Virus record (IMG/VR): IMGVR_UViG_3300043468_000734
Span: 1 to 23,199 of that record
Reading direction: 5' to 3' (one strand)
Length of the DNA stretch: 23,199 nt
Source of the DNA: a virus
Both the position numbers and the translations under genes were made by a program. The stretch's first letter is position 1. Each line of letters opens with the position of its first letter. The notes beneath the pieces were generated by a model. It made no database searches. It worked only from the letters and a program-made list of their open reading frames with translations, and was not told the origin of the DNA. Below are positions 2,155-22,923 of the stretch, piece by piece.

Positions 2155-2514
2155 TCAAGCGTTACGCCTGGCGTTGCTGATAGCCCGCCGCACGAGCATC
2201 CTGCCGGCGAGGTCGAGGAACGGCAGGCCGCGAGCCGTGGCCTCGGCTCGCATGACGGCGACGACCTCGTCGATACGTTCTGGCTTGCTGCACTCGTCTG
2301 GCCCCCATGCGTCCATCTGCGCTGCCTTGGCGCGGCAGGCACAGGTTGGCGTTGGCTCAATGCCGATCCGCTTCAAGAGGCGGGATAGCTCGGTGCCGGG
2401 GCCGTGGGCGGGTGATGCGGCCAATGCCACGGGCCTGCATTCTCGGAAATGTTTTGGGCTTGGTGCCTTGTGCCCACAGGCAACGCACACCATGTTTTCG
2501 TAATTGCAAAGCAT
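2155..2514 (-). CDS. Zinc-ribbon-like conserved phage protein, 119 aa
   Basis: The N-terminus holds C10-x2-C13 and then H22-x3-C26, which looks like a zinc ribbon. It is followed by a conserved core: a GIEPTPTCACRAKAAQMD segment around residue 51, a WGPDEC segment, and a helical tail ending in Arg/Ala-rich residues. I recall similar small proteins from planctomycete prophages and related phages, always without an assigned function. The start at 2514 forms a TAATG overlap with the preceding stop, and GAGG lies about 10 bases upstream. A GTG two codons further up is the alternative. The gene sits between the cysteine-rich tail proteins and the metallophosphoesterase, so it could be a tail-tip accessory or a nucleic-acid-binding protein. 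Confidence 0.6.
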   Translation of the reverse strand: MLCNYENMVCVACGHKAPSPKHFRECRPVALAASPAHGPGTELSRLLKRIGIEPTPTCACRAKAAQMDAWGPDECSKPERIDEVVAVMRAEATARGLPFLDLAGRMLVRRAISNARRNA

Positions 2515-3365
2515 TAGCACATCACCTCTGCCGTAAACGACAGGGCAGCCAGATTTTTTTGTCCTTGGAACGAAAACAAAAAGCCTGTCCCGTTATTGCT
2601 TGCAAACGATTCGCTGGCGCAGCAAGAATTAAAGGGATGGACAACAACTCCGTCCGCCTGGCAGGACAATATTGCAGTTACACTGGCAGTGCATGACATC
2701 GCGTAACCTGTTGCATTACCAATGCACAAGAACCGAAGCGATACAGCCTTGAAGCCTGACAATGCTATTCTATAAAATCGAATATTTAACCCCGGAACAA
2801 CAGGTTGCAAGGCAAGCGAATACGTCCCATTCATTGATTCAAAGTCAGACCCGTAATCCGTATCTTGGCAATTAGAAAGGCGCACCTGTATCTCTTGCGG
2901 ACACGGCGACGGGCACCAGCCACATAAGTCAAAACCCGAGCATGTGGTCTTTACGCACGGATTCGGGCTACACACCGTCCCCACGCCCTGAAACACTGGC
3001 TCAACAGGCTGTGCTGGCGATGGCGTGTCAGTTGAACGACAGATAGATGCGTTTGGATTGGCAGCGTCCGCCGAGCACCCGATGCACGGCCTCCACGTCC
3101 CACCGCGAGCGTCGCACTCAGACTTCGTCCCGCCCCTGCACCTAGGGCCAGTAATGCCGTTGACGGTCATAGTGTCTGGGCCACAGCAGGAATTACTAGC
3201 GCACTTGCACTGACACTGCGGCTTGACCGTGCAAGTCGTGCCCTCGCAGCACGCGCCTTCGCGGCAGGCTTCGTTGCACTCGGCCTCGGTGCGGTAGCCG
3301 CCGCCGCCATCGAGTTTCCCTGCGCCATATTTCCCGCTGTAAGTTGCAACTTGTCTGCACGGCAT
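2514..3365 (-). CDS. Cysteine-rich putative distal tail protein, 283 aa
   Basis: I do not know a function. I count 29 cysteines in 283 residues, most in the first 165, including paired CC at 39-40 and 60-61, a run QCQCKC at 50-55, and repeated short motifs such as GACCEGTTC and GTVCSPNPC. The last 115 residues are beta-rich with few cysteines until a closing CC and a C-terminal Cys. Start at 3365 has GAGG 7 bases upstream. The gene follows the other Cys-rich gene by 13 bases. The cysteines could bind metal (cluster or zinc knuckles) or form disulfides after release from the cell. Base composition falls to about half GC in the 3' part, unlike the tape measure gene. Position suggests a distal tail or host-contact protein; related sequences, from memory, occur in planctomycete prophages. 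Confidence 0.6.
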   Translation of the reverse strand: MPCRQVATYSGKYGAGKLDGGGGYRTEAECNEACREGACCEGTTCTVKPQCQCKCASNSCCGPDTMTVNGITGPRCRGGTKSECDARGGTWRPCIGCSADAANPNASICRSTDTPSPAQPVEPVFQGVGTVCSPNPCVKTTCSGFDLCGWCPSPCPQEIQVRLSNCQDTDYGSDFESMNGTYSLALQPVVPGLNIRFYRIALSGFKAVSLRFLCIGNATGYAMSCTASVTAILSCQADGVVVHPFNSCCASESFASNNGTGFLFSFQGQKNLAALSFTAEVMC

Positions 3366-3378
3366 TCAGCAGCCTCGG

Positions 3379-4185
3379 TCAATAATTGGGAACAATAGAC
3401 ACGGTAACGTCGCGAGACCCAGACTGCTCGTATACCACTGGGTCAGATACATACCCGTATGGGCCGGTAAAACCCGGACGGGATGTAAAGCCAAATCCGA
3501 CATATGACCCTTCCACCCACCATTTGTCTGGTAGTGCTAGCGTGAGCACAACAGGAGAAGAAGAACTTATTTCACTGCAAGAAACAAACTTTGAAAATGG
3601 AAAATGTGTGAAGTCTCTCAGTACCCATGTAGGGTTTGCCGTAGCGCAAGAATATGGGCTTGGGCAAGTCTGAGTGCTGCATCCTAAGTCCGCACCAGCG
3701 CGGGGAACGGTATCCGAAGGATAGTTAGCTAGGCTTGATTCAAACTGGCCGCGCACGGAGACTGCGAAGTAGCAGCTTGCCAAGTCAAAAGAAATGTTGG
3801 ACGCTGCAACTCCTGATGACGAACACGCCGGGTTGTCAGGAAGGCTTGTCTCGTATCGAGTTGCGCTAACGCGAGCGAGCGTGTGCGTTCCCGACAATGC
3901 GCTTCCCTTGAAATAACTAGTGAGCCCAACTCCCGCTCCAGATCCTCCAACAATGTTGTAGTAGACTCGGCCCATTACCCTATTGACGTAATCGGACGCA
4001 GTCACAGTGGCCGTGAAGCTCTCCGGTGCGCGATATGGCGGGCATGATCCAAGGCAATACGAACACGCTGGCGTTGTGTTGCAATCGTTTTCGCAATAGC
4101 AATACCACCCCCCGCAGCACCCGCAGTCCTCTGCGATCTGGCCGTCCTTGACGATCAGCGAGCCGTTTTTGGTTGCGAGTGTCAT
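3379..4185 (-). CDS. Cysteine-clustered putative distal tail protein, 268 aa
   Basis: An N-terminal stretch typical of planctomycete phage proteins (SLIVKDGQIAEDCGCC, from residue 9) leads into a dense cluster of nine cysteines between residues 21 and 48. The remaining 220 residues are beta-rich, with aromatic and Ser/Thr-rich strands and a few scattered Cys, and end in a hydrophobic strand. ATG at 4185 shares its A with the preceding TAA stop (TAATG). Much of the coding sequence is AT-rich for this phage: one 60-base row (3541-3600) holds only 23 G or C. Cluster plus beta domain may form a metal-stabilised base and a receptor-contact head, but this is inference. No enzyme motif was seen. Confidence 0.6.
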   Translation of the reverse strand: MTLATKNGSLIVKDGQIAEDCGCCGGWYCYCENDCNTTPACSYCLGSCPPYRAPESFTATVTASDYVNRVMGRVYYNIVGGSGAGVGLTSYFKGSALSGTHTLARVSATRYETSLPDNPACSSSGVAASNISFDLASCYFAVSVRGQFESSLANYPSDTVPRAGADLGCSTQTCPSPYSCATANPTWVLRDFTHFPFSKFVSCSEISSSSPVVLTLALPDKWWVEGSYVGFGFTSRPGFTGPYGYVSDPVVYEQSGSRDVTVSIVPNY

Positions 4186-4841
4186 TAGGTGCACCCAGTC
4201 GTTCCGATGGTCGAGCCAGTGATGCCAGTTGGGCCGTAGACCCATGCCCGCTTCTTCTCAACAGCGATACCGGTAGCCCCGAGCGTTACGTTGGTGACAA
4301 CGTCGATCTGCGTGCCGCGGCCGTTACCGAGCCGCACCAAGGCCCACTGGCCCGCACCAGTGCCCTGCTTCCACAGAATGAGCCCCTCGCCGTTGTCGGT
4401 GCTCTTGAGCTCGGAGCTCGAGCTCTTGCACCGCACAAACGTGTGGGCGGAGTCGGCGACCTCCACCTTCACCTGCACGCACCCTCCGACCGCAACACGC
4501 CCGACCTCGCCGGCCGCAATCGGCTCTACTGCCACGCACCAGGCCGTCGTCGTGTCGCTGGGCGTGCCACCGGCCACGACCGGCAGCTGCTCGAACTGGC
4601 TCGTCGCGCCACTGCTGTCGCCTGGCGTGATTGCCATGCCGGTGATCGCAAGCACGCCCCAGCGTGGCACCGTAGACGCTGTGTTGTTTTTCGCCATGAC
4701 CCACGTGTACGGCGTCGGCTGTTCGACAGCCCCGCCGTCGCCGAATCCGACGGCCGGCTGCAGCAGGCGGTTGAGTCCGTTGATCTGGCTGGCGGCCAGA
4801 CGGATCGGATCACCCGGGTTGACTTGCTGGCGAGGGTCCAT
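4185..4841 (-). CDS. Putative distal tail protein ending in Gly-Pro-Thr-Gly motif, 218 aa
   Basis: I recognise the general type rather than a function. The N-terminus (NPGDPIRLAASQINGLN, residues 8-24) resembles proteins found after the tape measure gene in planctomycete phages. A region near residues 50-75 (NNTASTVPRWGVLAITG) and later strands suggest a beta-rich structural protein. The last 17 residues carry GPTGITGSTIGTTG, a collagen-like scrap matching the motif of the fibre genes upstream. Start at 4841 follows the previous stop by one base (TGA C ATG) with only a weak ribosome-binding site, so translation is probably coupled. A decoration or adaptor role at the tail tip is possible. Confidence 0.6.
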   Translation of the reverse strand: MDPRQQVNPGDPIRLAASQINGLNRLLQPAVGFGDGGAVEQPTPYTWVMAKNNTASTVPRWGVLAITGMAITPGDSSGATSQFEQLPVVAGGTPSDTTTAWCVAVEPIAAGEVGRVAVGGCVQVKVEVADSAHTFVRCKSSSSELKSTDNGEGLILWKQGTGAGQWALVRLGNGRGTQIDVVTNVTLGATGIAVEKKRAWVYGPTGITGSTIGTTGCT

Positions 4842-10194: not shown

Positions 10195-10914
10195 TCACCC
10201 GCTGCGGAACCGGCCGGCGAACTCTTGTGCGATCCTGCCTCGCCTCACACCCTCGAGCATTGCCGGGAACATGAAAGGTCGCTGCGGGTACGGGAAAGTT
10301 TTTCTGAATGACGTGATCTGCCAGTTCGCCTTGCTCTTCGGGCCTTTGCCGACGCGATACCACGAGAGGATGCCCTTGTAGCCGCGGTCATACCGCGGGA
10401 TCCACGCCCAGGCCGCCATCTGCTGCGAGCCGCCGTGCTCGTGCAGGCTTGCGATATATGGCGCACCGTCCATGAAAGCACCGACAACCACAGACTCAGT
10501 CGATGGGTCATATTGATACGTTATTGAGCGGCGAAGTGTGCCCGCGTGAGTGTGAGGTGGGTTTGGCGCCGTACTAGCTGGCTTGAACTTGATTTGATAC
10601 AGCCTCTGCGAGATCTTCCGCTTTGTCCTGGTGCTAATGTCATTTCTCGCGAGCAGCTGCCGGAGTGTCGAGTCAGGGTTCGCTCGCATTACAGCCAGCT
10701 TCGGCTTAGCCATGCCCATCTTCTTGATCGACCGACGACTGATCTGCATCACCACAGACCCAGCCCGATACAGTCCGCGGTAGATCGCTTTGTCGAGCGC
10801 AGCTTGCACGCTGGCACGGTCGAAAAAGAAATCAAAGTTGATCCGCATCGGGATCCCGGCCGATCCCGACAGTCCAGCACCGAGCGGATTCCGGCCAGCG
10901 TCTAGCATGCTCAT
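10195..10914 (-). CDS. HK97 gp10-like tail completion protein, 239 aa
   Basis: The middle of the protein carries the signature of the HK97-gp10-like family: a NPPHTHAGTLRRSITYQY stretch, then VVVGAF, a PYIASLHEHGG segment, and a C-terminal YPQRPFMFPAM stretch. The N-terminal half is strongly basic and helical (YRAGSVVMQISRRSIKKMG). Family members act at the head-tail junction or tail completion. I used the ATG at 10914, which overlaps the preceding stop as ATGA. A later ATG at 10848, starting MRINFDFFF, is a real alternative and is nearer the usual beginning of the family. An insertion-like segment of about 35 residues (WAWIPRYDRGYKGILSWYRV) lies between the HEHGG and RPFM parts. Confidence 0.75.
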   Translation of the reverse strand: MSMLDAGRNPLGAGLSGSAGIPMRINFDFFFDRASVQAALDKAIYRGLYRAGSVVMQISRRSIKKMGMAKPKLAVMRANPDSTLRQLLARNDISTRTKRKISQRLYQIKFKPASTAPNPPHTHAGTLRRSITYQYDPSTESVVVGAFMDGAPYIASLHEHGGSQQMAAWAWIPRYDRGYKGILSWYRVGKGPKSKANWQITSFRKTFPYPQRPFMFPAMLEGVRRGRIAQEFAGRFRSG

Positions 10915-11417
10915 GCGCCGGTAGCTCCTGTCGGGCCGGTCGGAGCCGCTGGCACCCACTTATCTACCGGGATATCCCACTGCACGGCGATCTGTGCCAT
11001 GAACACGTTGCGGGCCTCGAGCAGTTCCGGATCGTAGGGCAGGGGGTTGCTTACCTCTGTCCAGTCGTTGTTTTCCGGCAGACCGCTGGGCTTGATGTAG
11101 TTTGACCGGATAGCATCAACGATCTCCTGGCAGAGATCCTCCAGGGCAACGATGTCCGCCTCGCTGCCGACGTGCTTGGCCACGACAATCCCGACGGTCG
11201 TGTCGGCCAACTCCATGCCTTTCGTCTCTGTCTTCATCGTGTATGGGCCTGGCACCACCGACACGCGGAGGGAGCCGAGATCCTCAAGCCCGTAGTCGGG
11301 CTTGCGTTGCATGGTGGCGGCGATCGTGCCGCCGGGCACGCTGCCCCAACTAAATGCCGACAGGGCGGCTGCCAGCTGCGTGGCAAGGTTGCGTGAGAGG
11401 TGCGGCGTGACTGGCAT
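10911..11417 (-). CDS. Tail terminator-like protein with GPTGATG C-terminal tail, 168 aa
   Basis: An alpha/beta protein of the size and position of siphophage tail terminators, which cap the tube. Recognisable parts are LATQLAAALSAFSW, then LRVSVVPGPYTMK, IVVAKHVGSEADIVALEDLC, and a FMAQIAVQWDIP strand near the end; this combination recurs in planctomycete phage regions. Unusually, the last 15 residues ([15 protein letters not shown]) form a collagen-like Gly-Pro-Thr tail like that of the fibre proteins. Start at 11417 is one base after the glycosyltransferase stop (TAG C ATG). The stop overlaps the gp10-like start. Confidence 0.65.
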   Translation of the reverse strand: MPVTPHLSRNLATQLAAALSAFSWGSVPGGTIAATMQRKPDYGLEDLGSLRVSVVPGPYTMKTETKGMELADTTVGIVVAKHVGSEADIVALEDLCQEIVDAIRSNYIKPSGLPENNDWTEVSNPLPYDPELLEARNVFMAQIAVQWDIPVDKWVPAAPTGPTGATGA

Positions 11418-11418
11418 G

Positions 11419-12477
11419 CTATCGCTCCTGGGGGCCGGGGATGCTTGTCGTGAGCTCGAGCTCCAGCTTCGCGACGGCCGCGGCCGTCTCCTGCGACGAT
11501 TGCCGACGGAACGCCTCGCGGGCGTGCTCCAGGGCCTCCTGCTTGAGCCCGAGGCTGTAGGCCGCGGTGGCGGCCATCTCAGGGGCTCGGTGCCCATAGG
11601 CCACTGGATCGCTGGTGTGCGTCTGTCGGTCTGGTGGGGCCATCGAGGCCCGCCGAGCCCAGTGCAGGGCACCAACGGCGTCGCCGGCATCCCAGCACGC
11701 CTCACCGAGGGCCAGATAGCCCTCCGGCTCGTGGGGCGACTCCTCGATCGTTCGCAGCAGCCAATTGCCGGCCTTATCCGGCTGCCGGCGGGCGAGCACG
11801 CGGTAGGCATAGGCACGCTCGCATGCGGCCCCGCCGGGCAGCGTGAGGTAATGCTCAAACGCCTCCACGATCCCGGGCTGGTCGTGGTAGTCGAGCTCGC
11901 GGGCGAGATACCACGCCATGCGGGCATCTTGCGGAGCCTCTTTGACGGCCTGCTGGAGTAGCGTCAGGTCGCTCTTGTGCTGCTTCCCTGGCTGCCGGTG
12001 GTGCCGGATCAGCAGGGCGTCGGTGTGCGTCTGCGTCTCGGCACCGCTCCAACGCACCAGACCCTCGTGCGTGGCACCGGTCCACCGATAGCCGGCCCGG
12101 AGGTGAATGCGATCGCTCTTAAATTTCAGCGCATCCGACCACTGATACCAGTAGCGGAGTTTGGTCGTCTCAGGCGTCCACGCCGCCTCTAAGGCATCAC
12201 GCCAGCCGGGCTCAAGCACCTCGTCGAGGTCCAGCCGGATCGCCACGTCAACGTGGCTGGGCAGATGCTGCATGGAGAGGTTGTGGGCATCGTCCCACCT
12301 CCACGGCACGACGTTCCCGCGGGCCACGGTCACGCCCTCGAACTCGAGCAGCTGCGTCGTGTCGTCGATCGAGCCCGTGTCGGTGACTACCCGCACGTCG
12401 GCGTCGCGGCACGACGCCTCCCAGGCCGGGACGTTAGCGGCCTCATTCTTCGCGAGCGCGTAGATGCCGACGATCAT
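11419..12477 (-). CDS. GT2-family glycosyltransferase with C-terminal TPR repeats, 352 aa
   Basis: The first 100 residues have the GT-A fold signs of family 2: YALAKNEAANV at 7-17, D33-TGSIDDT for nucleotide-sugar binding, and the metal-binding DLDE at 83-86 followed by EPGW. An acceptor-side ATHEGL lies at 135-140. From about 170 to 330 come TPR-like helical pairs (DARMAWYLARELDYHDQPG, EPEGYLALGEACWDAGDAVGALHWA). It should transfer a sugar from an activated donor; donor and acceptor cannot be read. The ATG at 12477 shares a base with the methyltransferase stop (TGATG), with GGAGG 4 bases before it. The operon places it beside a methyltransferase and collagen-like fibres, suggesting fibre or host-surface glycan modification. 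Confidence 0.85.
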   Translation of the reverse strand: MIVGIYALAKNEAANVPAWEASCRDADVRVVTDTGSIDDTTQLLEFEGVTVARGNVVPWRWDDAHNLSMQHLPSHVDVAIRLDLDEVLEPGWRDALEAAWTPETTKLRYWYQWSDALKFKSDRIHLRAGYRWTGATHEGLVRWSGAETQTHTDALLIRHHRQPGKQHKSDLTLLQQAVKEAPQDARMAWYLARELDYHDQPGIVEAFEHYLTLPGGAACERAYAYRVLARRQPDKAGNWLLRTIEESPHEPEGYLALGEACWDAGDAVGALHWARRASMAPPDRQTHTSDPVAYGHRAPEMAATAAYSLGLKQEALEHAREAFRRQSSQETAAAVAKLELELTTSIPGPQER

Positions 12478-13031
12478 CAAGCCTCCACAAGCACGGCGGC
12501 CTTCCGCAGCCCGTCATGGAAATAGACCGGCTCTCGGCCAGTCTCTTCACAGAACTCCTCGACGGCCCGCTCCACTTCTGGGTTGCAGCAGTCGTCGGCA
12601 AGGATCACCGGCACGTGAGCCACCAGCCGCAGATCGGCCAGCGCCCCTTGGTAGGAGTGGTCGCCGTCGACGTGGGCAAAGTCCGCCGGCGGCAGCTGCC
12701 GCATGTCGTGGCTGTTGGCAACGACCAGCTGGGCATCGATCCCGAGCGAGTCAACAACACTCTGCCAGTGCTGCAGGCATGCCGGGCTGTCGGAGTCGAG
12801 CGCGCCGTCGATGCAGAAAAATGTTGCGTCAGGTGCCACGGCATGAAACGCGGCGAGCGAGTAGCCGCAACGCGTACCGATCTCGATCACTCGAGCAGGC
12901 TTGTGCTCGCGGCACACCCGGGCCTTGGCTGCGTAGTGGCCGACAGCCTCCGGCGAACACGGAAACCAGTCTCCCGGCATCCAGTGAATCCGCAGACGGT
13001 CGCCGACCTGGTCCTCGAGCTCGTCACCCAT
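12477..13031 (-). CDS. Class I SAM-dependent methyltransferase (Methyltransf_24 type), 184 aa
   Basis: Residues 48-57 (VIEIGTRCGY) form the SAM-binding motif I, FCIDGA at 72-77 gives the acidic residue for the ribose, and HVDGDHSYQGALADL at 120-134 is the hallmark of the Methyltransf_24 group. Members methylate hydroxyls on sugars and natural products, so an O-methyltransferase acting on a sugar is likely. The domain is close to the minimum length. I chose the ATG at 13031 because GGAGG is 5 bases upstream, giving an 8-base overlap with the propeller gene (ATGGGTGA). It sits between the propeller and glycosyltransferase genes and is presumably translated with them. Confidence 0.8.
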   Translation of the reverse strand: MGDELEDQVGDRLRIHWMPGDWFPCSPEAVGHYAAKARVCREHKPARVIEIGTRCGYSLAAFHAVAPDATFFCIDGALDSDSPACLQHWQSVVDSLGIDAQLVVANSHDMRQLPPADFAHVDGDHSYQGALADLRLVAHVPVILADDCCNPEVERAVEEFCEETGREPVYFHDGLRKAAVLVEA

Positions 13032-14091
13032 CGTTGCCTCCAATCATGGCCAGCACCTCGGCCATACTCATCTCAGCCATCCACGCCTCGGCGTCACGCA
13101 CGCCGAAGGTTGCCACCAGCTGGTCGCCACGTCGGGCAAGCCCAGCCGCAAACTCAATCGCCCGCGATTCGCGAAACGCGAAAGCCGGCGACCAGCCCAC
13201 GATCCGCCACTCGTCGTCATTGAACAGCACGAACCGGTGTTCGTAGATGCGGCCGGCAGTGTCGTCAGCCACCTCGTGCACCAGGGCGAGCCAGCGGCCG
13301 TCGCCCAGGTCGACCAGCTGCGATCCGCCTCGCCAGCCGCGGGCGATCGCCGGCGATTCACCGTGCCGCTCCACCAGCCAATGCCAGCCGTCCTTGCGTA
13401 CCGTGGCCACGCGACCGTCGTCCCAGCACGCATAGAGGAAGTTTGGCGTGCCACCGATCGGCATCCAATTCTTTTCGTGCCGCCCCTTTTGCGGCTCATC
13501 GATCATGGCCGGATCGATGAGGCTGGCCTTGTAGGGCAACAGCGTGGCCGTCGCGATACGGCATGTGCCGTCTCGGCCGGCCCAGTTGCGGACGGTGGCA
13601 CTCACCACGAGCTCGCCCTCGACTGCGTTGAGCCGGCAATCCTCAAACCCATCCACTGGATAATCGGATTTAGGGTAGATGGGGTGAGGGATTGCAGACG
13701 GCTGCCCAGCAGCAGAAAGGTCTTCGCCGAGGTGCACGAGCACATTGACCGTGCGAATCAAATCACCGTCCGCCGGCGGTATCACGTACTGACCGTCAAC
13801 GATCCGGTAGTTGCTTGACCGCACGATCGCCAGATAGCCGTGTTCCTGCGCTACGATCGTCGGATTGAACGTCGACCAGCCGTCCGCTGCCGGCTCAACG
13901 TCAAACCTACGGAACCGGCACGCGACGATCTCGTCGATCGTCTGCGTGTACCAGCTGCGGTTGCGTCGCACGAGCCGCTCCTTCTCCGGAGTCAGTTCCA
14001 TGCCGAGCAGTCGCTCGCACGCCCGCCGGCCGGCGTCGAACTCGCCCGCGTAGTACGCGTGCACGGCCAACTGGTGAAGGTGCTCGACCAT
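13024..14091 (-). CDS. TPR-like plus GH130/GH43-type five-bladed propeller protein, 355 aa
   Basis: The first 50 residues are a TPR-like pair (LHQLAVHAYYAGEFDAGRRA then LTPEKERLVRRNRSWY). From about 70 on, the blades show motifs I know from a glycan-linked propeller family: FNPTIV at 75, RSSNYRI at 91, GFEDCRL at 148-154, HEKNWMPI at 205-212, GGSQL at 255-259, LVHEV at 270, IEFAAGLA at 312-319 and a FGVRDAEAWMA end. In other genomes this part is, as I recall, often fused behind GT2 and TPR domains, and here they are separate genes side by side. It may bind or process a glycan, but no catalytic pair can be assigned with confidence. GAGG precedes the start by 5 bases. Confidence 0.7.
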   Translation of the reverse strand: MVEHLHQLAVHAYYAGEFDAGRRACERLLGMELTPEKERLVRRNRSWYTQTIDEIVACRFRRFDVEPAADGWSTFNPTIVAQEHGYLAIVRSSNYRIVDGQYVIPPADGDLIRTVNVLVHLGEDLSAAGQPSAIPHPIYPKSDYPVDGFEDCRLNAVEGELVVSATVRNWAGRDGTCRIATATLLPYKASLIDPAMIDEPQKGRHEKNWMPIGGTPNFLYACWDDGRVATVRKDGWHWLVERHGESPAIARGWRGGSQLVDLGDGRWLALVHEVADDTAGRIYEHRFVLFNDDEWRIVGWSPAFAFRESRAIEFAAGLARRGDQLVATFGVRDAEAWMAEMSMAEVLAMIGGNDG

Positions 14092-14098
14092 CCAGACC

Positions 14099-14746
14099 TC
14101 ACGATGTGGCCGCAGACTTGATCGCAGCCCTGAGAGTGGCGTTGCTGCCCACGGCCGCGATCACGTCGGCGATCGTCAGCGAGCCTGTCGGGCCGGTGGG
14201 GCCTGCAATCGACACCGCGGCCGGCCATTCGCCAGCCGCCTTCGGTCCAAAAAATTGTTTTCCTGTCACGTCGAACGCCAGGTCGCCGTCGCGGCCCACG
14301 TTGGCATTCGGCGTGCCTCCCACGGACAGCACCGATGCCCCATGAGCCCCCGTCGGCCCGGTCTCGCCGCCAATTCCAGTCGGGCCGGTGTAGCTCTGGC
14401 CAGACGGCCCAGTGGACCCCGTAACTCCAGACGGCCCCTGCGCGCCGGTCTGCAGCTGCAGCGGAGATCCCCAGGAACCGTCTGCCTTCGGCCCGTACAG
14501 CCGGCCGTTGGTCGTGTCGAGCCAGAAGTCGCGGCTGTTGCCGAACCCGGCAGAAGGCGCTCCTGAACCACCATAGAACTGCGAGCCGTCGGCGCCGGTC
14601 GGACCGGTCACGCCAGTGGCCGGCAGCCACGCAGAGCCGCTCCAAGCGAGCACCTGGTTGGCGGCCGGTGCAGTCGCCGAAACGGTTCGCCCCTGCAGTT
14701 GCGTAGCGTTGCCGCTCAGTGTGGCTGGTAGTGAAAAGAATGGCAT
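14099..14746 (-). CDS. Short collagen-like tail fibre protein, 215 aa
   Basis: The first 120 residues are a paralogue of the N-terminus of the 720-residue fibre gene at the other end of the cassette: shared SGNA-LQLQGR, VSAT, a W-GSAW turn, GVTGPTG and a LYGPKA-SWGS-LQLQ segment. A collagen-like stretch with GPTG, GPSG and GETGPTG follows at 102-137. A second copy of the 'D-GK-FFGPKAAGEW' unit occurs at 155-176, so the gene also contains an internal duplication. The C-terminus is a short helix (TIADVIAAVGSNATLRAAIK). ATG at 14746 has GAGG 8 bases upstream; a GTG three codons earlier is less likely. A structural, trimeric fibre or adaptor protein is inferred. Confidence 0.75.
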   Translation of the reverse strand: MPFFSLPATLSGNATQLQGRTVSATAPAANQVLAWSGSAWLPATGVTGPTGADGSQFYGGSGAPSAGFGNSRDFWLDTTNGRLYGPKADGSWGSPLQLQTGAQGPSGVTGSTGPSGQSYTGPTGIGGETGPTGAHGASVLSVGGTPNANVGRDGDLAFDVTGKQFFGPKAAGEWPAAVSIAGPTGPTGSLTIADVIAAVGSNATLRAAIKSAATS

Positions 14747-14823
14747 GAATGTCACCTCGAATTTGTTCTGCCACAGACTGCCGCAAAGCCAAATAGGATT
14801 GACCCTCTATGCCTTCAGCAGCG

Positions 14824-15174
14824 TTAAATCCCCGCCGCCTCGACAAACGCCTGATCGACCTGATCCTCTGTCAGCCCCAGAGCCGCCGCGAGCGGAACGA
14901 GCATGGGGTGCGAACGCTCCACATACGGAGCGTAATCCCACTCCACCCTCACAGAGTCTCGCTGTAACTGGTCCGGGATCGCGTCGATGGCTGCGTCCAC
15001 CGCCGCGAGGCTGATGCCTTGGCGAAGCAGCCAGAGGCGTATCTGGCGGGCGGAGACGCTCGTGGGTACAGAGTCGTCCACGGCCTGCTGATTCATGCCG
15101 ATGACGGTGCCGCTCTCGTCTCGGACCTCCCAAGTGCGCATGCCGTTGATCACGCCGAGATAGGTGGTCGTCAC
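14824..15174 (-). CDS. Small fibre-associated accessory protein, 116 aa
   Basis: It begins at a GTG (15174) overlapping the stop of the long collagen-like gene as GTGA, with GGGAGA 6 bases upstream. The N-terminus is a short beta part ([19 protein letters not shown]). The C-terminal 75 residues match a widespread small phage protein: [16 protein letters not shown], then [21 protein letters not shown], and a [20 protein letters not shown] helix at the end. Such proteins lie beside tail fibre genes in many phages and are often considered fibre assembly factors, though I know of no firm proof for this type. The 77-base gap after it holds no gene that I can support. Confidence 0.7.
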
Positions 15175-16811
15175 GAGATTCTCCCATACATCATGTAGCT
15201 GCCAGATGAGATGGTCGTAGCCGATGTTGGCATGTCTGATTGGCTTCCCAGATTCCCCGAAACCATCGGCGGCAGCCGCATGAATGTGCCAGTGCTGACG
15301 GTGGCGGATTGCCACTGCCCAGCCGTGGTGCCAACGACCAAGAACCCTACTGCGTAACGAGAGCCGGCGACGAGATTGTATGACGCAGGAAAGCCACCGG
15401 CCGTGCTGAATGTGCGAGAGTAGATTGTATTAGCGACGTTGCCAATCGTTGTATCGCTGGCAGTCTGAGCGACCAGAGTGATTGACGGTGATGTGACCGT
15501 GGTGCCGTCGGTTATCGTCTCGGAGACGGCAAACAGCGCGAACTTGCACAGCGTGAGCGAAGCGGTGGCCGTTCCAGCGGTTACAAAAGTGATCGTTGTC
15601 ACTGTGGTGTTTGTTGGTGCCGTAAAAAACGCCAGGGTCAAAAGGCCAGACGAGGCATTGGCACCTCCGATCACACCATGCCCTCGCGGCAACCAGTCAA
15701 TCGCGTTGCTGCTGGCCTGCATCGCCCATCGCAGATTCTCATTCCGCGTGACGTTGCCGCTCAGTCTCGCGTCAGGAAGCGTGCCGCTCGTCAGATCGGA
15801 GGCCGATGTCGTGGCGATCCCGCCGCCAGAGGTTCCGACCTCTATGTAGACCGGCGACTCCCACTGGTAGAGCCGCGACGTGTCCTCGGCCAAGTACAGG
15901 GCAGTCGATGAGCCAGTGGCAGGGAAGTCGGTGACAGACGCATAGACCAGCGAGGCGGGAGGACCTTGCGGTCCGGTGGCGCCTTGGCTTCCTGCTACGC
16001 CAGTTGGCCCGGTCACCGTAGACGCAGCGCCAGCGCTGCCAGTCGGGCCTGTCACAGTAGAAGCGGCGCCTGCCGCTCCAGTCGCCCCCGTCGGACCGGC
16101 GACTGTAGACGCAGCACCCTGCGCGCCTATTGCTCCTGTTGGACCCGTAACGGTTGATGCGGCGCCCTGGCTGCCGGTCGCGCCAGTCGGTCCCGTGACA
16201 TTAGACGCGGCGCCAGCAGAGCCGGCCGCTCCGGTCGGCCCGGTGACGGTCGATGCGGCTCCAGTCGCGCCCGTCGGGCCGGTGATGGATGCGCCAGCAG
16301 GGCCAACCGACCCGGCAACCCCCGTCGGCCCGGTCACGCTCTGGCCGGCAGCACCGTCGCTGCCGCGAGCCCCCGTGGCACCAGTGGCGCCAACCAAACC
16401 GGAGTCGCCTCGTTGACCTGCTGCGCCAGTCGGACCGGTAATGCTCTGGCCTGCAGCACCATCGACGCCTCGAGCACCTGTCGGGCCTGTCGCGCCAACG
16501 CTTCCAGCCGTCCCGGCCGGGCCGGTGGCGCCGACCACGCTGGCGCCTGTCGGGCCTGGGACTGTCGAGACGGCCCCAGCGGGGCCAGTCGGACCTGTGA
16601 CAGTAGATGCAGCGCCAGTAGCCCCGATCGGACCAGCCACGCCCTGGCTGCCTGTCTGCCCGACGTCACCTCGAGGCCCAGTCGGACCGACGCCGGCAAG
16701 CTGCACAGCGAATGTCTGTCCGCTTGTGATTACCGGCGACACGCCGGTGGCACCGGTGACGCTCACGGCGAACGGTGCTGGCCCGGTGACGCTGACGCGA
16801 ATGTCGCTCAT
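15171..16811 (-). CDS. Long collagen-like tail fibre protein, 546 aa
   Basis: Residues about 42-284 are collagen-like, with Gly-Pro-Thr triplets broken into units by short AASTVT-type interruptions. The typical unit is [12 protein letters not shown]. Then comes a module at 289-331 ([33 protein letters not shown]), a short linker, and a C-terminal beta-rich region (360-546) rich in Ser and Thr that probably forms the trimeric head or receptor-contact domain. Phage collagen-like proteins trimerise as rods in tail fibres and host-adhesion structures. ATG at 16811 overlaps the stop of the BppU-like gene (ATGA). Proline in the Y position is rare and threonine frequent, as in bacterial collagens that lack prolyl hydroxylation. 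Confidence 0.85.
15960..16688 (-). repeat. Collagen-like coding repeat region
   Basis: Degenerate tandem repeats in the DNA encode GPT/GAT/GAA triplets, with recurrent STVTGPTGA units of 30-54 bases. The units differ in synonymous positions and length, as expected for repeats that expand and contract by recombination or slippage. Confidence 0.8.
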
Positions 16812-17161
16812 GGCGCCCTCAGAGTGAACGTGCCTGACGTCACCGCTCGGTCGAGGGCAGACGACCGCAAGAACCATCGGTAGCTCTTGGTGAGCGAAAG
16901 TCCTTTGACGGTTGACGCCGAGAGCGAGAGCGTAATAGCGCCGATGGAGTTGTCGACGCGAGCGATGGACCAGGTCGCCGCCGGGGCTGGCGTTGCGGCG
17001 ATCGCAGCTGCGTAGCCGCCAGCCGTGTCTTCGTATATCACTGCGGTGAGTGTGTCACCAGCGGTCGAGAACCCTAGCGAGCCGGTGATAGCCAGGCCGT
17101 CACCGTGGGCCACGACGACGTCTAGAGCACCAGGCAGCTGCGTATACGTTGCATTGTTCAT
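16808..17161 (-). CDS. BppU-like baseplate/tail accessory protein, 117 aa
   Basis: A small beta-rich protein shaped like the N-terminal domain of baseplate upper proteins. It opens with [17 protein letters not shown], continues with [11 protein letters not shown] and an [22 protein letters not shown] strand pair, and ends in YRWFLRSS and a SGTFTLRAP tail. This domain type often precedes fibre genes and docks the fibre to the tail. The ATG at 17161 follows the 41-residue gene by one base; GGTGAG is in the upstream codons. Confidence in the fold is moderate, since it rests on pattern only. Confidence 0.55.
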
Positions 17162-17537: not shown

Positions 17538-19271
17538 TTAAAACGTGATGCTCCCGGTGGACGTGAACACATAGACCGTCTCGCCTGCGACCGTGGAGAC
17601 GGTTGGCGATCCGGTGGTCGAAGCTGCCGCGACGGGGGCGCGAATGATGACAACGCCCGAGCCGCCGTTGCCGCCCTGCTGCGGATATGATCCGCCGCCG
17701 CCACCCGAGCCCGTGTTCGTTGCGCCGCTGGTGCCAGCCACGTTGTCGGTCGCGCCATTTCCGCCACCGCCAGAGCCTGACCCGCTCGTCGGTGCGCTGC
17801 CGCCGCCGCCGCCTGCCCGCACTACTGCGGTGCCGGTGATTGTTGAGGAGGCACCACTACCACCCGTCGAGCCGCTGGCAGTGGCAATTCCGACACCACC
17901 CGCGCCGCCGCCGCCTGCGCCGCCGTAAGTCGTCGCGCCGCCGTTGTTACCCTGCGAAGGCGAGGTCGCAGGTGTGTTGCCAGCACCACCAGCCGCCGAC
18001 CCCGCGCCACCACCGCCGCCACCAGAGCCTCCCGAGCCGCCAACCACGCCCGCGCTGTCGCTGCCCGCACCGTAGCCGCCGCCTGCGGACTCTATGCCAG
18101 CGAATGAACTTGCACTACCCGAGGAGCCGATGCCGACTTGCGATGCCGTGAGGGCAGCACCACCGCCGCCAACCACGACCGCGTATGCGGTCCCTGCGGT
18201 GATGGTTGTCGTGCCAGACCGATACCCGCCAGCACCACCGCCGCCAGAAAAATAGCGTCCGCCGCCGCCGCCACCGCCGACCACCAGATAGCTGAGATTC
18301 ACCGGAGTAGTGAGAGCCGTTCGCTTCCACGTATTCGCAGCCGTCGCCACCCAGAGGTTGTCGCCGTCATACGCGATCTCGCCCGCCGCACCCGTCGCCG
18401 TCGCGGATGCTGGCGCAGATGACCACGAGAGGCCCGAGCCGCCGCCTGATCCGGTGACGGTGACCGGGAGGGTGAGGCCGTCATAGTCCAAAAACGCCTT
18501 TGCGGGCACAGAAATTGAAGCACCCTCGTACCCCCTGTTTGTGCCGAGGGTTACACGGAGATCATCTATGTACCCTGCGTAATCCCTAGACGTTCCTGTG
18601 TTGTTATTCGTCGCAATAAATACGTTTGAACTAGAAGAGAACGACGAAGAGCTAGTTCCGGTGGCGTTTCGCGTTCCGTCTAGGTACAGCGAAAACGAGT
18701 TTCCCGTGCGGACGAGCGCAACGTGATGCCATTGACCGTCCGTCCAGTCTCCGCTTGACGCAAGCAGCAAGCCCGACCCGCCGTACACTGCCACCTGCCC
18801 GGCACCGTTATTGTTCAGAAGCAGCGTAAACCCGCCCGTGCCTTCATTCCCTATTAGCTGTGCGTATTGCGTGCGGCTAGAACTGCGGAACCACATCTCA
18901 ATACAGAAATCATTTGTTCCAAACGCTATGGGGGGAACAGTCAAATAGTCGCCAGCTCCGTCGAAGTATGCGCTTTTCCCGCCAAACTTAGACTGATCGA
19001 CCGATTGCGTTGCGTTGCCATACGCGGTGACTGTTTTCGGAGACGACGACGAATCGACAAACGTGCCGCCAGTCCCGTCCATGTGCAAAAGCAGCGAGAC
19101 GCTTGAGAAGTACGGATCGCCCAGCCCCGGTATCGTCACCGTCGCTGAGAGCGCGCCACCGCCACTCGCCGCGACGAGTTCCCACGCCGCGCCGCTCCAC
19201 GACCAAGTGCGTCCGTTGGCAGTATAGGTTTGACCTACAGTGGGTGATGCTGGGGGGGAGAGTGATGGCAT
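17538..19271 (-). CDS. Tail adhesin with LamG-type domain and glycine-rich C-terminus, 577 aa
   Basis: The N-terminus (PSLSPPASPTVGQTYTANGR) is a motif common at the head of phage fibre modules. Residues about 55-247 form a LamG/concanavalin A-like jellyroll (LLLHMDG, CIEMWFRSS, GQWHHVALVRTGNSFSLYLDG, YIDDLRV), a sugar-binding fold in many proteins. A module at 291-317 (AGEIAYDGDNLWVATAANTW) follows. Residues 328-546 are glycine-rich (VVGGGGGGG and GGGGAGGYR blocks), as in phage receptor-binding tips made of polyglycine helices. The C-terminus (ETVYVFTSTGSITF) is the typical closing strand. The LamG part is AT-rich for this genome: row 18601-18660 has 24 G/C of 60. It probably binds cell-surface glycans. 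Confidence 0.8.
   Translation of the reverse strand: MPSLSPPASPTVGQTYTANGRTWSWSGAAWELVAASGGGALSATVTIPGLGDPYFSSVSLLLHMDGTGGTFVDSSSSPKTVTAYGNATQSVDQSKFGGKSAYFDGAGDYLTVPPIAFGTNDFCIEMWFRSSSRTQYAQLIGNEGTGGFTLLLNNNGAGQVAVYGGSGLLLASSGDWTDGQWHHVALVRTGNSFSLYLDGTRNATGTSSSSFSSSSNVFIATNNNTGTSRDYAGYIDDLRVTLGTNRGYEGASISVPAKAFLDYDGLTLPVTVTGSGGGSGLSWSSAPASATATGAAGEIAYDGDNLWVATAANTWKRTALTTPVNLSYLVVGGGGGGGRYFSGGGGAGGYRSGTTTITAGTAYAVVVGGGGAALTASQVGIGSSGSASSFAGIESAGGGYGAGSDSAGVVGGSGGSGGGGGGAGSAAGGAGNTPATSPSQGNNGGATTYGGAGGGGAGGVGIATASGSTGGSGASSTITGTAVVRAGGGGGSAPTSGSGSGGGGNGATDNVAGTSGATNTGSGGGGGSYPQQGGNGGSGVVIIRAPVAAASTTGSPTVSTVAGETVYVFTSTGSITF
17634..18290 (-). repeat. Glycine-rich coding region
   Basis: Runs of glycine codons (GGN), with Ala, Ser and Thr between them, span about 219 codons. 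Different codons are used within runs, so this is selected protein composition rather than simple base repetition. Confidence 0.7.
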
Positions 19272-19279
19272 TGTTTACC

Positions 19280-20404
19280 CTATGCGTAGCTAATGACGAG
19301 TGACCCGGCCGTGTCGGTTGCACGTATCTCTCTGTCCGACGCTGCATTTTCGCCGGAAAGATACAGCACTATTGAGCTTCCCGGCGTCCATCCGGCCTGC
19401 CCTACGATCTCCGCGATCACGGCAGTGCAATCAACTGTCAGATTGCCGTTGGATGTGGTCACGCTGCCTGTCGCGCTTGCCGTGGTCGGGCTGGTGCCCT
19501 GAAGCCCTTGCCCAGCGTTAGAAAGTTTTGCCCCGCGCAGGACAGCGTCAAAAGCCGTCTTAGAGATTGTATTCCAAGTGTACGGGAGCGTGAATACTGC
19601 GGAGCTAATCACGGTCGGCTTACTGGCTGGGGTCCACGTTGTCCGCCAGCCTATGGCACTGACGGTGTTATCATCCCACCGGCCGAAATAATATTCCGAG
19701 TCAAAGTAGCCGTTCGCTGTGTTCCACCGCCAGCTATTCAGCCCGCCGCCAGATGTGAGGGTCGCTGACAGGTTCGGCACCGCAGGCGTCGCCGCAGTCG
19801 ATGCCGCCGAGTAGCTGCCCGTTCCAATGGCATTTGTCGCTGAGACGCGGAAGACATACGGCGTGCCATTGGTGAGTCCGGTAACAGTGGCACTCGCCGC
19901 AGCGGACGCAGACCGCGTGAAGTTTGACCAAGACGCCCCGCTGTTGCTGCTGAACTGAACGGTGTAGTCCGTTATTGGAGTGACAGAAAGAACGGTTGGC
20001 GCAGTCCACGCGAGCGACACCTGCGCGTTGCCCGCTGTGGGCGTCACACTCGTCGGCGCAGGAGGAGTAAGCAACGCCCGCAACTCAGTGTCAGTGCCGC
20101 CGCCACTCACACCCGCCTCGATGTAGGCACCCGCCCAGATGTAGGCGCGAGCCGTGTCCGTAGCAATGTACAGCGTGCCAGAAGACGAGCCGGTCGCGGG
20201 GAATCCTGCGACTGTCGCGGCGGTGACGATGCTGCCAGAGCCACCGCCGCCGCTGCCGCCGAGCGTCACGCTGACGATCTGTCCGCTGGGATTGCGAGTG
20301 AACGCCTTCGCGTCCACCCAGTTAATAGCCAGCTCGTTGGCTTCGAGGGCTGTGGGCACGTAGTTGGCTACCCACGACCGCGATGGCTGAATCTTGTTAG
20401 GCAT
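19280..20404 (-). CDS. Tail protein with FnIII and DNRLRE-like domains, 374 aa
   Basis: Residues 1-45 resemble the start of phage fibre proteins (VPTALEANELAINWVDAKAFTRN). A glycine linker leads to a module at 64-103 shared with the long collagen-like protein (VAGFPATGSS, LYIATDTARAYIW, YIEAGVSGGG). A clear fibronectin type III domain spans about 113-208 (PTSVTPTAGNAQVSLAWTAP to PYVFRVSATNAIGTGSYS). The rest, 220-374, looks like a DNRLRE-type jellyroll (ISSAVFTLPYTWN, VDCTAVIAEIVGQAGWTPGS, IVLYLSGE, AGSLVISYA), a fold linked to polysaccharide-associated proteins. It starts 3 bases after the previous stop, with GGGTGA nearby. Likely host-surface binding; no catalytic residues can be named. Confidence 0.75.
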   Translation of the reverse strand: MPNKIQPSRSWVANYVPTALEANELAINWVDAKAFTRNPSGQIVSVTLGGSGGGGSGSIVTAATVAGFPATGSSSGTLYIATDTARAYIWAGAYIEAGVSGGGTDTELRALLTPPAPTSVTPTAGNAQVSLAWTAPTVLSVTPITDYTVQFSSNSGASWSNFTRSASAAASATVTGLTNGTPYVFRVSATNAIGTGSYSAASTAATPAVPNLSATLTSGGGLNSWRWNTANGYFDSEYYFGRWDDNTVSAIGWRTTWTPASKPTVISSAVFTLPYTWNTISKTAFDAVLRGAKLSNAGQGLQGTSPTTASATGSVTTSNGNLTVDCTAVIAEIVGQAGWTPGSSIVLYLSGENAASDREIRATDTAGSLVISYA

Positions 20405-20407
20405 GCG

Positions 20408-22570
20408 TCACCCTGAGACCGTGAGAGTTGCGGATTGGCTCGTGACGCTGCTCGCACCAGTAGCACTGACGGTAACTCGATAGCGTTTGCCCGAATCAGC
20501 CGTCGTCAATCCAGTGAGGGAGAGCGTGGAACTGGTAGCGCTGCTGATGTTCGCCCAGGTCGTGCCCGCGTCAGTGGAGACTTGCCACTGGTAGGACGCC
20601 ACGCCAGTCGTGACGGCTGCGGACACGGCTAGCGTGGCCGACGTGGCACCAGACGGCACAACTGCACCGGTGGCGATTGACGTGCCGCCAGAAACGAACA
20701 GGAGACTGTCGCTCAGAGATGCAGCCGGACCATATCCAACGCCAGACGGCATCTCGACATACGTCCACACTTGACCATCGCTGCTAACGGCAGCATCTAC
20801 GCCGCTGCCATATGCGACAAACACGCCGTCAACAAAAACAATCCTGCCGTTCCACATCACGCCAGACGGCAACGCAAACGATGACCAGTTGACGCCATCC
20901 GTGCTGGCGACAGCATTTGCGCCGGAAAGGGAAACAAACTTTCCGTTTCCGTACACAACGCCTGCCGGGCCGGCGCTGGCCGCAAATGGGAAGGTCGTGT
21001 CAGTTCTGGACCACGAAATGCTATCGGTACTGACTGCGCAAGCGCCAACGGGATTCACTGACGTATTCAACCGTGCGACCGCGACAAACTTCCCAGACCC
21101 ATACGCGACTGAGTGATACAGCAATGCCGAATTTTGCCCGACAACCCGTAGCGTCGGCCGCCGTTCCGTCCATGACAATCCGTCAGAACTGGTCATGAAA
21201 TACTGGTAAGGCTCGCTGTCTGGCCCAGCCTTTTCGTTCAGAACGATTACAAACTTTCCGCCACCATATGCCAACGTGCGCCGCGATCCGCTGCCTGTCC
21301 AGCTAGCGCCGAACTGAAACTGCATGGCAAAAGTTGATGCGTTGTCGGTACTTGTGTAGATTTCCTGTCGCTGGTAGGGAGATGTCTGTGAACCGCCGCC
21401 AGCTAAAAACACTGTGCGGAAGTCGGTGGCTGACGCGGAAATAACGACAGTATTTCCGGCTGTTGCGATGCACTCTCCGTACCGAACGTATGGCTCGCTC
21501 GGCATCGCATACAAGCTCGTCCACGCTGTCTTGTTTGTGGACGCTACGAGGCTGGAGCCTGTAGTGCCGCCAAACGCAAGGTATCTGCTGCCATCGGCTA
21601 CAACGTCAGCGCCCACAGCCAGATTCGCCGTCCCCAGCGCGAGGTTCGCAAGCGTGTACCCAATGTACGCAGTCGTGTTTGATGGCTGGCTTGTGATTGT
21701 GACCACCGGGCCAACGATCTCCCCGATGTAGTCGCCTCCGTCGATGACGGCGTTTGCATCCAAGCCCGCCTTGCTGTCGATAGTCAGCGTCGAGCCGTTG
21801 GTCGTGAGCGTGACGTTTGAGCCAGCCGCCAGGGTCAACGCACCCGTGAGGTTGTTCAGGCTCGTCACGTAGTTGTGAGCGTGGTTGATGCCCGAGTAGC
21901 CCGACGACAAGCCAGATACGAGCGTCGTGTTGGTAGGGAAGTTGCTCGGCACGCCCGACAGGTTCGCGTAGCTGATGACCGGCAGCGAGTGGGAGTGGTC
22001 AGCACGGGCCGCGAGGATGCTGGTGCCCGGTGACGCCGTCCCGAGGTTTGCGGGCGTGGCGTCGGAGAGCGAGAGGCTTGAGTTTCCGGCTGGGCCTTGT
22101 ACGCCAGTCGGACCAGTGGCGCCAAATCCAGTCGGGCCTGTGGCGCCAGCAGGTCCTGCGATCAAAGATGCGGCGCCGGTCGCGCCAGTTGCCCCAGTGG
22201 GGCCGTTAGCAGGCCCCGTGGCACCCGTTAAACCAACCGGCCCAGTAGGCCCCTGCGGGCCGCTCTGCAGCTGTAGACCAGAGCCCCACGCGTTATTCGC
22301 CTTTGGACCGTAGAGGACACCCGCGTTGGAGTCGATGTAATAGTCGCCACTGCGGCCGAGGCCGGAGAATGGGCCTGTCGCGCCGCTGTAAATCTGCGGG
22401 CCATCAACGCCTGAGCTTCCTGTAGGACCTGTCACGCCAGCCAGCGGCGACCACGCCGATCCGTCCCACGTCAGCACCTGCCCACCGGTGGGGCCGGTGG
22501 CCGAAACGGCACGGCCCTGCAGCTGCAGGGCGTTGCCGCTGGTCGGTGATTGGATGGAGAAATACGGCAT
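20408..22570 (-). CDS. Collagen-like tail fibre with BNR-type propeller and Ig-like domain, 720 aa
   Basis: Residues 1-105 are the fibre N-terminus shared with the 215-residue fibre gene (SGNALQLQGR, WDGSAWSPL, GVTGPTG, LYGPKA, WGSGLQLQ). A collagen-like stretch occupies about 103-163. A fibre shaft part follows, with DHSHSLPVISYANL and NHAHNYVTSLNNLTG. From about 315 to 625 there are repeated propeller strands (YGGGKFVIVL, YGSGKFVAVA, YGNGKFVSLS; each near an S-D-G-x-x-W unit such as SSDGLSW), like BNR/Ycf48-type propellers. An Ig-like domain closes the protein at 635-720 (YQWQVSTDAGTTW, DSGKRYRVTVSA). The ATG at 22570 shares a base with the upstream stop (TGATG) and matches the paralogue's start. 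Host receptor binding is inferred. Confidence 0.85.
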   Translation of the reverse strand: MPYFSIQSPTSGNALQLQGRAVSATGPTGGQVLTWDGSAWSPLAGVTGPTGSSGVDGPQIYSGATGPFSGLGRSGDYYIDSNAGVLYGPKANNAWGSGLQLQSGPQGPTGPVGLTGATGPANGPTGATGATGAASLIAGPAGATGPTGFGATGPTGVQGPAGNSSLSLSDATPANLGTASPGTSILAARADHSHSLPVISYANLSGVPSNFPTNTTLVSGLSSGYSGINHAHNYVTSLNNLTGALTLAAGSNVTLTTNGSTLTIDSKAGLDANAVIDGGDYIGEIVGPVVTITSQPSNTTAYIGYTLANLALGTANLAVGADVVADGSRYLAFGGTTGSSLVASTNKTAWTSLYAMPSEPYVRYGECIATAGNTVVISASATDFRTVFLAGGGSQTSPYQRQEIYTSTDNASTFAMQFQFGASWTGSGSRRTLAYGGGKFVIVLNEKAGPDSEPYQYFMTSSDGLSWTERRPTLRVVGQNSALLYHSVAYGSGKFVAVARLNTSVNPVGACAVSTDSISWSRTDTTFPFAASAGPAGVVYGNGKFVSLSGANAVASTDGVNWSSFALPSGVMWNGRIVFVDGVFVAYGSGVDAAVSSDGQVWTYVEMPSGVGYGPAASLSDSLLFVSGGTSIATGAVVPSGATSATLAVSAAVTTGVASYQWQVSTDAGTTWANISSATSSTLSLTGLTTADSGKRYRVTVSATGASSVTSQSATLTVSG
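22082..22264 (-). repeat. Collagen-like coding repeat region
   Basis: GPT, GAT and GPA triplet codons repeat over about 61 residues with two interruptions (ANGPT and AASLIA). The DNA repeats are degenerate and similar in kind to those in the long collagen-like gene. Confidence 0.65.
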
Positions 22571-22923
22571 CACGGCACCAACTGGGTGTGAATTTTTCTG
22601 ATCTTCTGCTGACGGTCTGCCCACACCCACGCGTTGCCGCTGAATGGTGCGAACACCTCATACGCATTGCCGTCTGGCTCAATCACTTTGTCACCCTTCT
22701 TCGGAACCGCCGACAGGTAGTCGGTGGAGATGAAGAAGTCGCGACTCTCAATGCGAGTGATTGAACCGGCCTGGTCCATTGAGTCGTGCCGCGTCATGCC
22801 GACCATTGCCGGCACGGACACCGGCACAAGCGAGCCGATGCTGCGGTACTCGACCTGCACCGAAAGGTGCTTGTCGGCCTGCTGCCGGAACCACGCTGCG
22901 CCCTGCGAGATGAGATCCTGCAT
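22570..22923 (-). CDS. Head closure / head-tail joining-like protein, 117 aa
   Basis: A small protein that begins with an amphipathic helix (LISQGAAWFRQQADKHLS) and continues as a beta domain: VQVEYRSIG, MVGMTRHDSM, a RIESRDFFIS segment, PKKGDKVIEPDGNAYEVFAP and a C-terminal RKIHTQLV strand. The pattern GD-I-E-x-G-x-x-Y-V is typical of head closure or stopper proteins of siphophages, which follow the capsid genes and join head and tail. The ATG at 22923 is the only available start, since an in-frame stop lies just upstream, but its ribosome-binding site is weak. It is followed at once by the fibre cassette, not by the tail terminator as is more usual. Confidence 0.7.
   Translation of the reverse strand: MQDLISQGAAWFRQQADKHLSVQVEYRSIGSLVPVSVPAMVGMTRHDSMDQAGSITRIESRDFFISTDYLSAVPKKGDKVIEPDGNAYEVFAPFSGNAWVWADRQQKIRKIHTQLVP

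Follow-up and report, generated by a model that had tools for sequence, protein, structure and literature searches.

The contig IMGVR_UViG_3300043468_000734 of the IMG/VR collection, which derives from a freshwater-type phage, was analysed over its entire length of 23,199 bp (hereafter the window), and all of its major genes lie on the minus strand. Within it, a trio of genes encoding a propeller enzyme (PROP), a methyltransferase (MT) and a glycosyltransferase (GT) sits between the genes of collagen-like fibres carrying Gly-Pro-Thr (GPT) triplets and a neck gene, and is considered here as a candidate cassette for the glycosylation of virion proteins (Table 1). In order of transcription, a head-tail connector-like gene is followed by genes for a 722-aa collagen-like protein, an Fn3 protein, a LamG/glycine-rich adhesin, a 117-aa protein, a 546-aa collagen-like protein, a 115-aa protein and a 214-aa collagen-like protein, then by PROP, MT and GT, and finally by the neck protein, the tail tube and the tape measure. 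The overlap of PROP with MT is ATGGGTGA and that of MT with GT is TGATG. The 214-aa collagen gene stops 7 nt ahead of the PROP ATG and GT stops 1 nt ahead of the neck ATG; the cassette is linked to the neck gene as tightly as to the collagen gene, and no promoter-like sites were found across the cassette region. The sequence-only reading of this DNA had described three translationally linked, sugar-related genes beside genes for collagen-like fibres with many GPT triplets, and both parts of that description are confirmed. More specifically, all of the genes and both overlaps are present, and the repeats of the 546-aa protein exceed those of all 2000 shuffles (13 GPT against at most 5; longest G-X-Y run 11 against at most 7).

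Table 1. Genes of the cassette and its surroundings in the window.
Feature	Position	Strand	Remarks
GT, 352-aa GT2-type glycosyltransferase	11419..12477	-	N-terminal GT-A domain with DxD (LDLDE), C-terminal TPR
MT, 184-aa class I S-adenosylmethionine (SAM) methyltransferase	12477..13031	-	Methyltransf_24
PROP, 355 aa	13024..14091	-	short TPR-like helical N-terminus and GH130/GT108-fold propeller (predicted)
214-aa collagen-like protein	14099..14743	-	short GPT repeats
115-aa protein between both collagen genes	14824..15171	-	phrog_6034; homologs at same place in relatives
546-aa collagen-like fibre	15171..16811	-	13 GPT; C-terminal adhesin-like domain; Collagen E 2e-16; phrog tail fiber E 3e-32
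117-aa conserved protein upstream of 546-aa fibre	16808..17161	-	kept in relatives
577-aa LamG and glycine-rich adhesin	17538..19271	-	Laminin_G_3 E 3.6e-24; Gly_rich_2 E 6e-15
374-aa Fn3 fibre protein	19280..20404	-	fn3 E 1e-11
722-aa collagen-like fibre	20408..22576	-	6 GPT; Collagen E 3e-4 (below cut-off); tail-fibre PHROGs
168-aa neck-region protein, directly after GT gene	10911..11417	-	C-terminus is a short GPT tail

The GT matches phrog_13126 (beta-1,4-glycosyltransferase) with an E-value of 1.5e-58 over residues 2-327, and weakly TPR models as well; the near full-length profile match, the DxD of the GT-A domain and the C-terminal TPR are those expected of a member of this family. The motifs TDTGS, RWDDAHN and D83xD85 are invariant in the homolog alignment, and in the AlphaFold2 model (predicted local distance difference test, pLDDT, 88.9) TPR helices come after a GT-A domain. 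In the PDB, the six best matches of this model all belong to the peptide S-glycosyltransferases ThuS and SunS (E 2.6e-14 to 2.9e-12), with the remaining sugar transferases matching from about E 1e-6. The SunS family profile gave no match to the GT of the window, and fused cellular relatives scored far below the SunS cut-off.

PROP had no match in a Pfam scan and did not pass the curated GH130 model PF04041. Because profile searches of PDB sequences also gave nothing significant, a comparison of folds was needed. The AlphaFold2 model of PROP (pLDDT 91.5) is a propeller whose 37 best PDB matches in Foldseek are members of the GH130 family and the GT108 enzyme MPT-2 (E 5e-11 to 5e-7, probability 1.00, template modelling (TM) score about 0.55). 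A GH130 profile aligned to a broad PROP profile (probability 84%, E 7e-6) such that E-D-x-R and other conserved motifs coincide; 24 diverse homologs all have E150, D151 and R153, which align to the invariant E-D-x-R of GH130, and the catalytic G-x-E-D-x-R with its invariant Asp is present along with the propeller fold. PROP shares this fold and catalytic motif with the GH130 mannoside phosphorylases and with the GT108 GDP-Man mannosyltransferase MPT-2, but differs from them in its short helical TPR-like N-terminus and in motifs of its own (HEKNWMP, RGGSQ, YEHRF). Since the curated Pfam model was not passed, PROP is filed, on its predicted structure, as GH130/GT108-like and not as a member of GH130, a fold that cannot separate phosphorylase, hydrolase and transferase chemistry. 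Proteins of Pithovirus-like giant viruses (LCPAC) in BFVD align with the PROP model over its full length, mostly at TM scores of 0.82-0.86. In an Ignavibacteria metagenome-assembled genome (MAG) that is rich in collagen genes, a single chain (L103, 6829-8997) combines a PROP domain with a second, Pfam-recognised GH130 domain; the Pfam match was considered as a bridge to PROP and discarded, as it sits in that second, C-terminal domain.

The MT matches Methyltransf_24 (E 7e-9) and weakly resembles catechol O-methyltransferases. Its motifs HVDGDHS and LADD are invariant, and the alignment places its conserved start at the ATG at 13031 and not at the TTG at 13043. Against the equivalog for rhamnosyl O-methyltransferases it reached 16.6 bits, for a cut-off of 400. 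Two proposals of the sequence-only reading are touched by these results. A GH130/GH43-like propeller was borne out in its GH130/GT108 fold and E-D-x-R motif, with the curated Pfam GH130 match lacking, and an analogy to the rhamnose and O-methylrhamnose of Bacillus BclA is left unsupported by the score of the MT.

Among phages, IMG/VR yielded 144 relatives of PROP, and 80 loci were retrieved. The order PROP-MT-GT-neck is kept in these approximately 80 loci down to about 50% identity, and in a scan of the collection with two single neck proteins as queries the trio was present in every neck-anchored locus with enough sequence, whether or not collagen was found. Median ratios of nonsynonymous to synonymous substitution (dN/dS) of 0.10-0.24, alike in collagen-bearing and collagen-free groups, indicate purifying selection on the trio. 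Some relatives carry extra genes between MT and GT, FkbM methyltransferases among them (L038, 11607-12236; L053, 11606-12235; L047), and further GT2 genes occur in the cassettes of L022 (4319-5083) and L023 (12197-12862); such insertions would be the expected look of a glycan-assembly cassette in which the sugar decoration changes. On the PROP tree, collagen-bearing lineages are widespread and the collagen-free phages form one derived subclade. Three loci with interrupted GPT repeats (L078-L080) were counted as collagen-bearing, though labelled collagen-free in the tree run, and the collagen status of five contigs that end near the cassette (L035-L037, L039, L068) was treated as unknown.

The relatives of GT in IMG/VR are frequently accompanied by collagen genes, which were found in 50 of 80 loci and within 4 kb in 28 of 44; the nearest collagen gene lies on the same strand as the GT relative in 49 of the 50. 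As controls, phage ribonucleotide reductase had collagen genes in 3 of 80 loci (0 of 43 within 4 kb) and another phage glycosyltransferase in 0 of 21. Particular cases include the actinophage DSL-LC01, where GT lies within a cluster of GPT collagens, the cyanophage DSL-LC02, where PROP adjoins a collagen-like gene, and a gut phage fragment with GT directly after a YadA-collagen gene. Next to the GPT collagens of DSL-LC01, the GT gene shares an overlap with a tryptophan-halogenase-like gene (L174, 3433-5004), and this phage also encodes a UDP-galactopyranose mutase.

The same association is found outside phages. In bacterial genomes, collagen-like genes occur at 27 of 46 PROP loci, mostly at 2 kb or less, and the closest spacings (39, 51 and 94 bp in L131, L121 and L119) are from Acidimicrobia and Devosia. 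A search of 72,556 plasmids returned a sole match, in Peribacillus, 164 bp downstream of a collagen gene with 24 GPT. Across 120 Mesorhizobium genomes, PROP was present in 29, GT in 28 and both in 28; collagen was present in 28 of the 29 genomes with PROP versus 36 of the 91 without it, a comparison uncorrected for relatedness. The partners of PROP in Mesorhizobium are giant DUF4347-collagen proteins with about 95% Thr in the Y position, and PROP is fused there behind a GT2-TPR domain, with a separate GT homolog after it. Fusion of GT2-TPR and PROP as one protein recurs in several bacteria, and the rhizobial loci L140 and L133 also carry Methyltransf_24. In L129 (3077-7669), L132 (1-6881) and other Mesorhizobium loci, the DUF4347-collagens are largely Gly-Ala-Thr triplets and several glycosyltransferase genes adjoin them. 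A further sample of 385 alphaproteobacterial genomes and 397 genomes from the phylum of the actinobacterial MAG yielded GT in five new genomes, and in three of these GT is separated from a GPT collagen by 45 bp to 4 kb. Thus, the association of GT and PROP with collagen recurs in unrelated phages, on a plasmid and in several bacterial phyla, far above the controls. In one bacterial locus (L377, 9120-14820, genome G228), a PF11397 GlcNAc-transferase domain fused to a 2-oxoglutarate (2OG)-Fe(II) oxygenase lies between GT and the GPT collagen gene. The pairing of a PF11397-type GlcNAc-transferase with a 2OG-Fe(II) oxygenase is known from the glycosylation of hydroxyproline, and the fusion is possibly a prolyl hydroxylase and hydroxyproline glycosyltransferase for a bacterial collagen.

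The trio is probably a cytoplasmic protein-glycosylation cassette that acts on the virion proteins of the phage itself, with the collagen fibres as main acceptor. The gene linkage, the folds, the conserved active-site motifs, the purifying selection and the recurrent association with collagen are observed; beyond them, we infer the acceptor residue, the sugar, the order of the three steps and the effect on the virion. The cassette would be expressed together with the late structural genes, and the TPR arm of GT would bind the newly made acceptor protein in the host cytoplasm. GT would then use a host sugar nucleotide to attach the first sugar, most likely through an O-link to Thr (or Ser) of the Gly-X-Thr repeats in the collagen-like fibres, which may be the main but not the only virion acceptor. 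PROP would lengthen or edit the glycan, most likely by a mannosyl-type transfer, and MT would O-methylate the sugar.

Several observations weigh against a cassette devoted to collagen. The derived subclade retains the whole trio with no collagen match in contigs of 31-42 kb, and the trio is therefore not strictly tied to collagen; in jumbo phages, the genes near GT relatives are a DNA ligase gene and head or tail genes, and no annotated collagen accompanies them. Conversely, 11 of 13 collagen-bearing reductase phages lack GT, and phage collagens without GT are thus common. Part of the enrichment in phages may also reflect location, since the reductase and the other glycosyltransferase are not genes of the fibre region, a bias from which the cases in bacteria and on the plasmid are free; and because many of the genomes tested are related, the Fisher values overstate independence. 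An expected enrichment of Thr in the Y position of collagens near GT was rejected, the fraction being 0.63 in GT-bearing and 0.62 in GT-lacking phages, and for this reason GPT richness was dropped as evidence. Thr-rich repeats are ordinary in bacterial collagens (PMC8968730), and such richness, generic to phage and bacterial collagens, is by itself no evidence of glycosylation. The sequence-only reading had named, as a finding that would refute it, related phages with the trio but no collagens and with collagens but no trio. Both occur somewhere, and what survives is a recurrent association in place of a strict coupling; its proposal that the phage decorates its own fibres is likely right in kind, with a target that is wider or shifting.

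It is somewhat unlikely that the trio instead decorates a non-collagen virion protein common to these phages, such as a LamG-type adhesin, neck, capsid or tail protein, and that collagen is incidental or secondary. The retention of the trio-neck order with or without collagen would fit this explanation, as would the purifying selection on the trio in the collagen-free subclade, where a LamG-type protein occupies the fibre slot of L042, and the glycans borne by mycobacteriophage major capsid proteins (cited in PMC11256854). However, it gives no account of the homologs of GT and PROP beside collagens in virion-free bacteria and on a plasmid. These same bacterial and plasmid neighbourhoods speak against a modification of the host surface, in which a host glycan or host collagen-like protein would be altered to exclude competing phages. 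Although this is the usual reading for phage glycosyltransferases near tail fibres (e.g. PMC7029224), and agrees with the PHROG label of beta-1,4-glycosyltransferase and with the annotation of a distant phage homolog as a lipooligosaccharide (LOS) glucosyltransferase, it appears quite improbable here, as peptide transferases are the structures closest to the GT fold, and the neighbourhood of the trio showed neither a membrane-anchored partner nor a gene for a sugar-lipid carrier. Fibre regions gain genes especially often and the Thr content of the collagens shows no relation to GT, as might be expected if unrelated moron genes had merely landed together. Such chance neighbourhood is very hard to credit and was rejected because of the conserved order and the purifying selection; the repeated, independent association with collagen is likewise against it.

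Two features of the window may be recorded beside the fibre genes. Short GPT tails end two structural proteins that are not fibres, the neck protein (10911-11417) and a 218-aa protein (4185-4841, ...GPTGITGSTIGTTGCT), as though collagen repeats were being seeded onto further proteins of the virion. Behind the tail genes, two adjoining cysteine-rich proteins (2514-4245) are variable among relatives.

The glycosylation of collagen-like fibres by the phage that makes them would be a specific alternative to the host-surface reading of tail-fibre glycosyltransferases. If true, it could explain how phage collagen triple helices are stabilised or shielded without hydroxyproline, assign a role to a family whose present label is 'moron', and offer enzymes for making glycosylated collagens. 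In nitrogen-fixing rhizobia, where Gly-Ala-Thr collagens adjoin these enzymes, the glycobiology of such surface proteins would become accessible as well. The association of the relatives of GT and PROP with collagen genes points to an unrecognised collagen-glycosylation toolkit. A bolder and more tentative proposal is that GT2-TPR, propeller and O-methyltransferase form a mobile toolkit of phages, plasmids and bacteria that may build a methylated glycan on the collagen Thr of the phage itself; bacterial viruses would thereby have their first pathway of this kind, and the GH130/GT108 fold would gain a role in protein glycans in bacteria.

Comparison with known systems places these proposals in context. 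The glycocin S-glycosyltransferases SunS and ThuS are the nearest solved structures to the phage GT and are GT2 enzymes that act on peptide, but their own targets are small bacteriocin peptides. The BclA collagen of the Bacillus exosporium is, similarly, a glycosylated bacterial collagen-like protein (PMC8968730, PMC10050317), although no pathway for rhamnose or O-methylrhamnose is visible in the phage window. A virus-encoded enzyme that glycosylates viral collagen-like proteins is known in L230 of Mimivirus, which, in contrast to the action proposed here, hydroxylates lysine and adds glucose to hydroxylysine (PMC9614988); a Pfam scan of the trio found no lysyl hydroxylase or GLT25D1-type glucosyltransferase domain. 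In the mycobacteriophages Che8 and Rita, phage-encoded glycosyltransferases decorate virion proteins, the target reported in the work cited in PMC11256854 being the major capsid protein and not collagen-like fibres. Clostridioides difficile SgtA is a 358-aa GT-A and TPR protein encoded immediately upstream of bclA3, and in vitro it adds beta-O-GlcNAc from UDP-GlcNAc to Thr of the GPT collagen repeats (PMC7157674). The phage GT has the same architecture, a GT-A domain with C-terminal TPR in about 355 residues, and its gene likewise adjoins that of a GPT-repeat collagen-like protein. Because the plan and the gene setting are alike, GT may be the starter of an O-glycan on the fibre; the action proposed for it, like that of SgtA, would be O-glycosylation of Thr in the repeats, the likeness being one of architecture and gene setting. 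SgtA is a spore-coat enzyme, whereas the phage set has a GH130/GT108-type propeller and a methyltransferase in addition.

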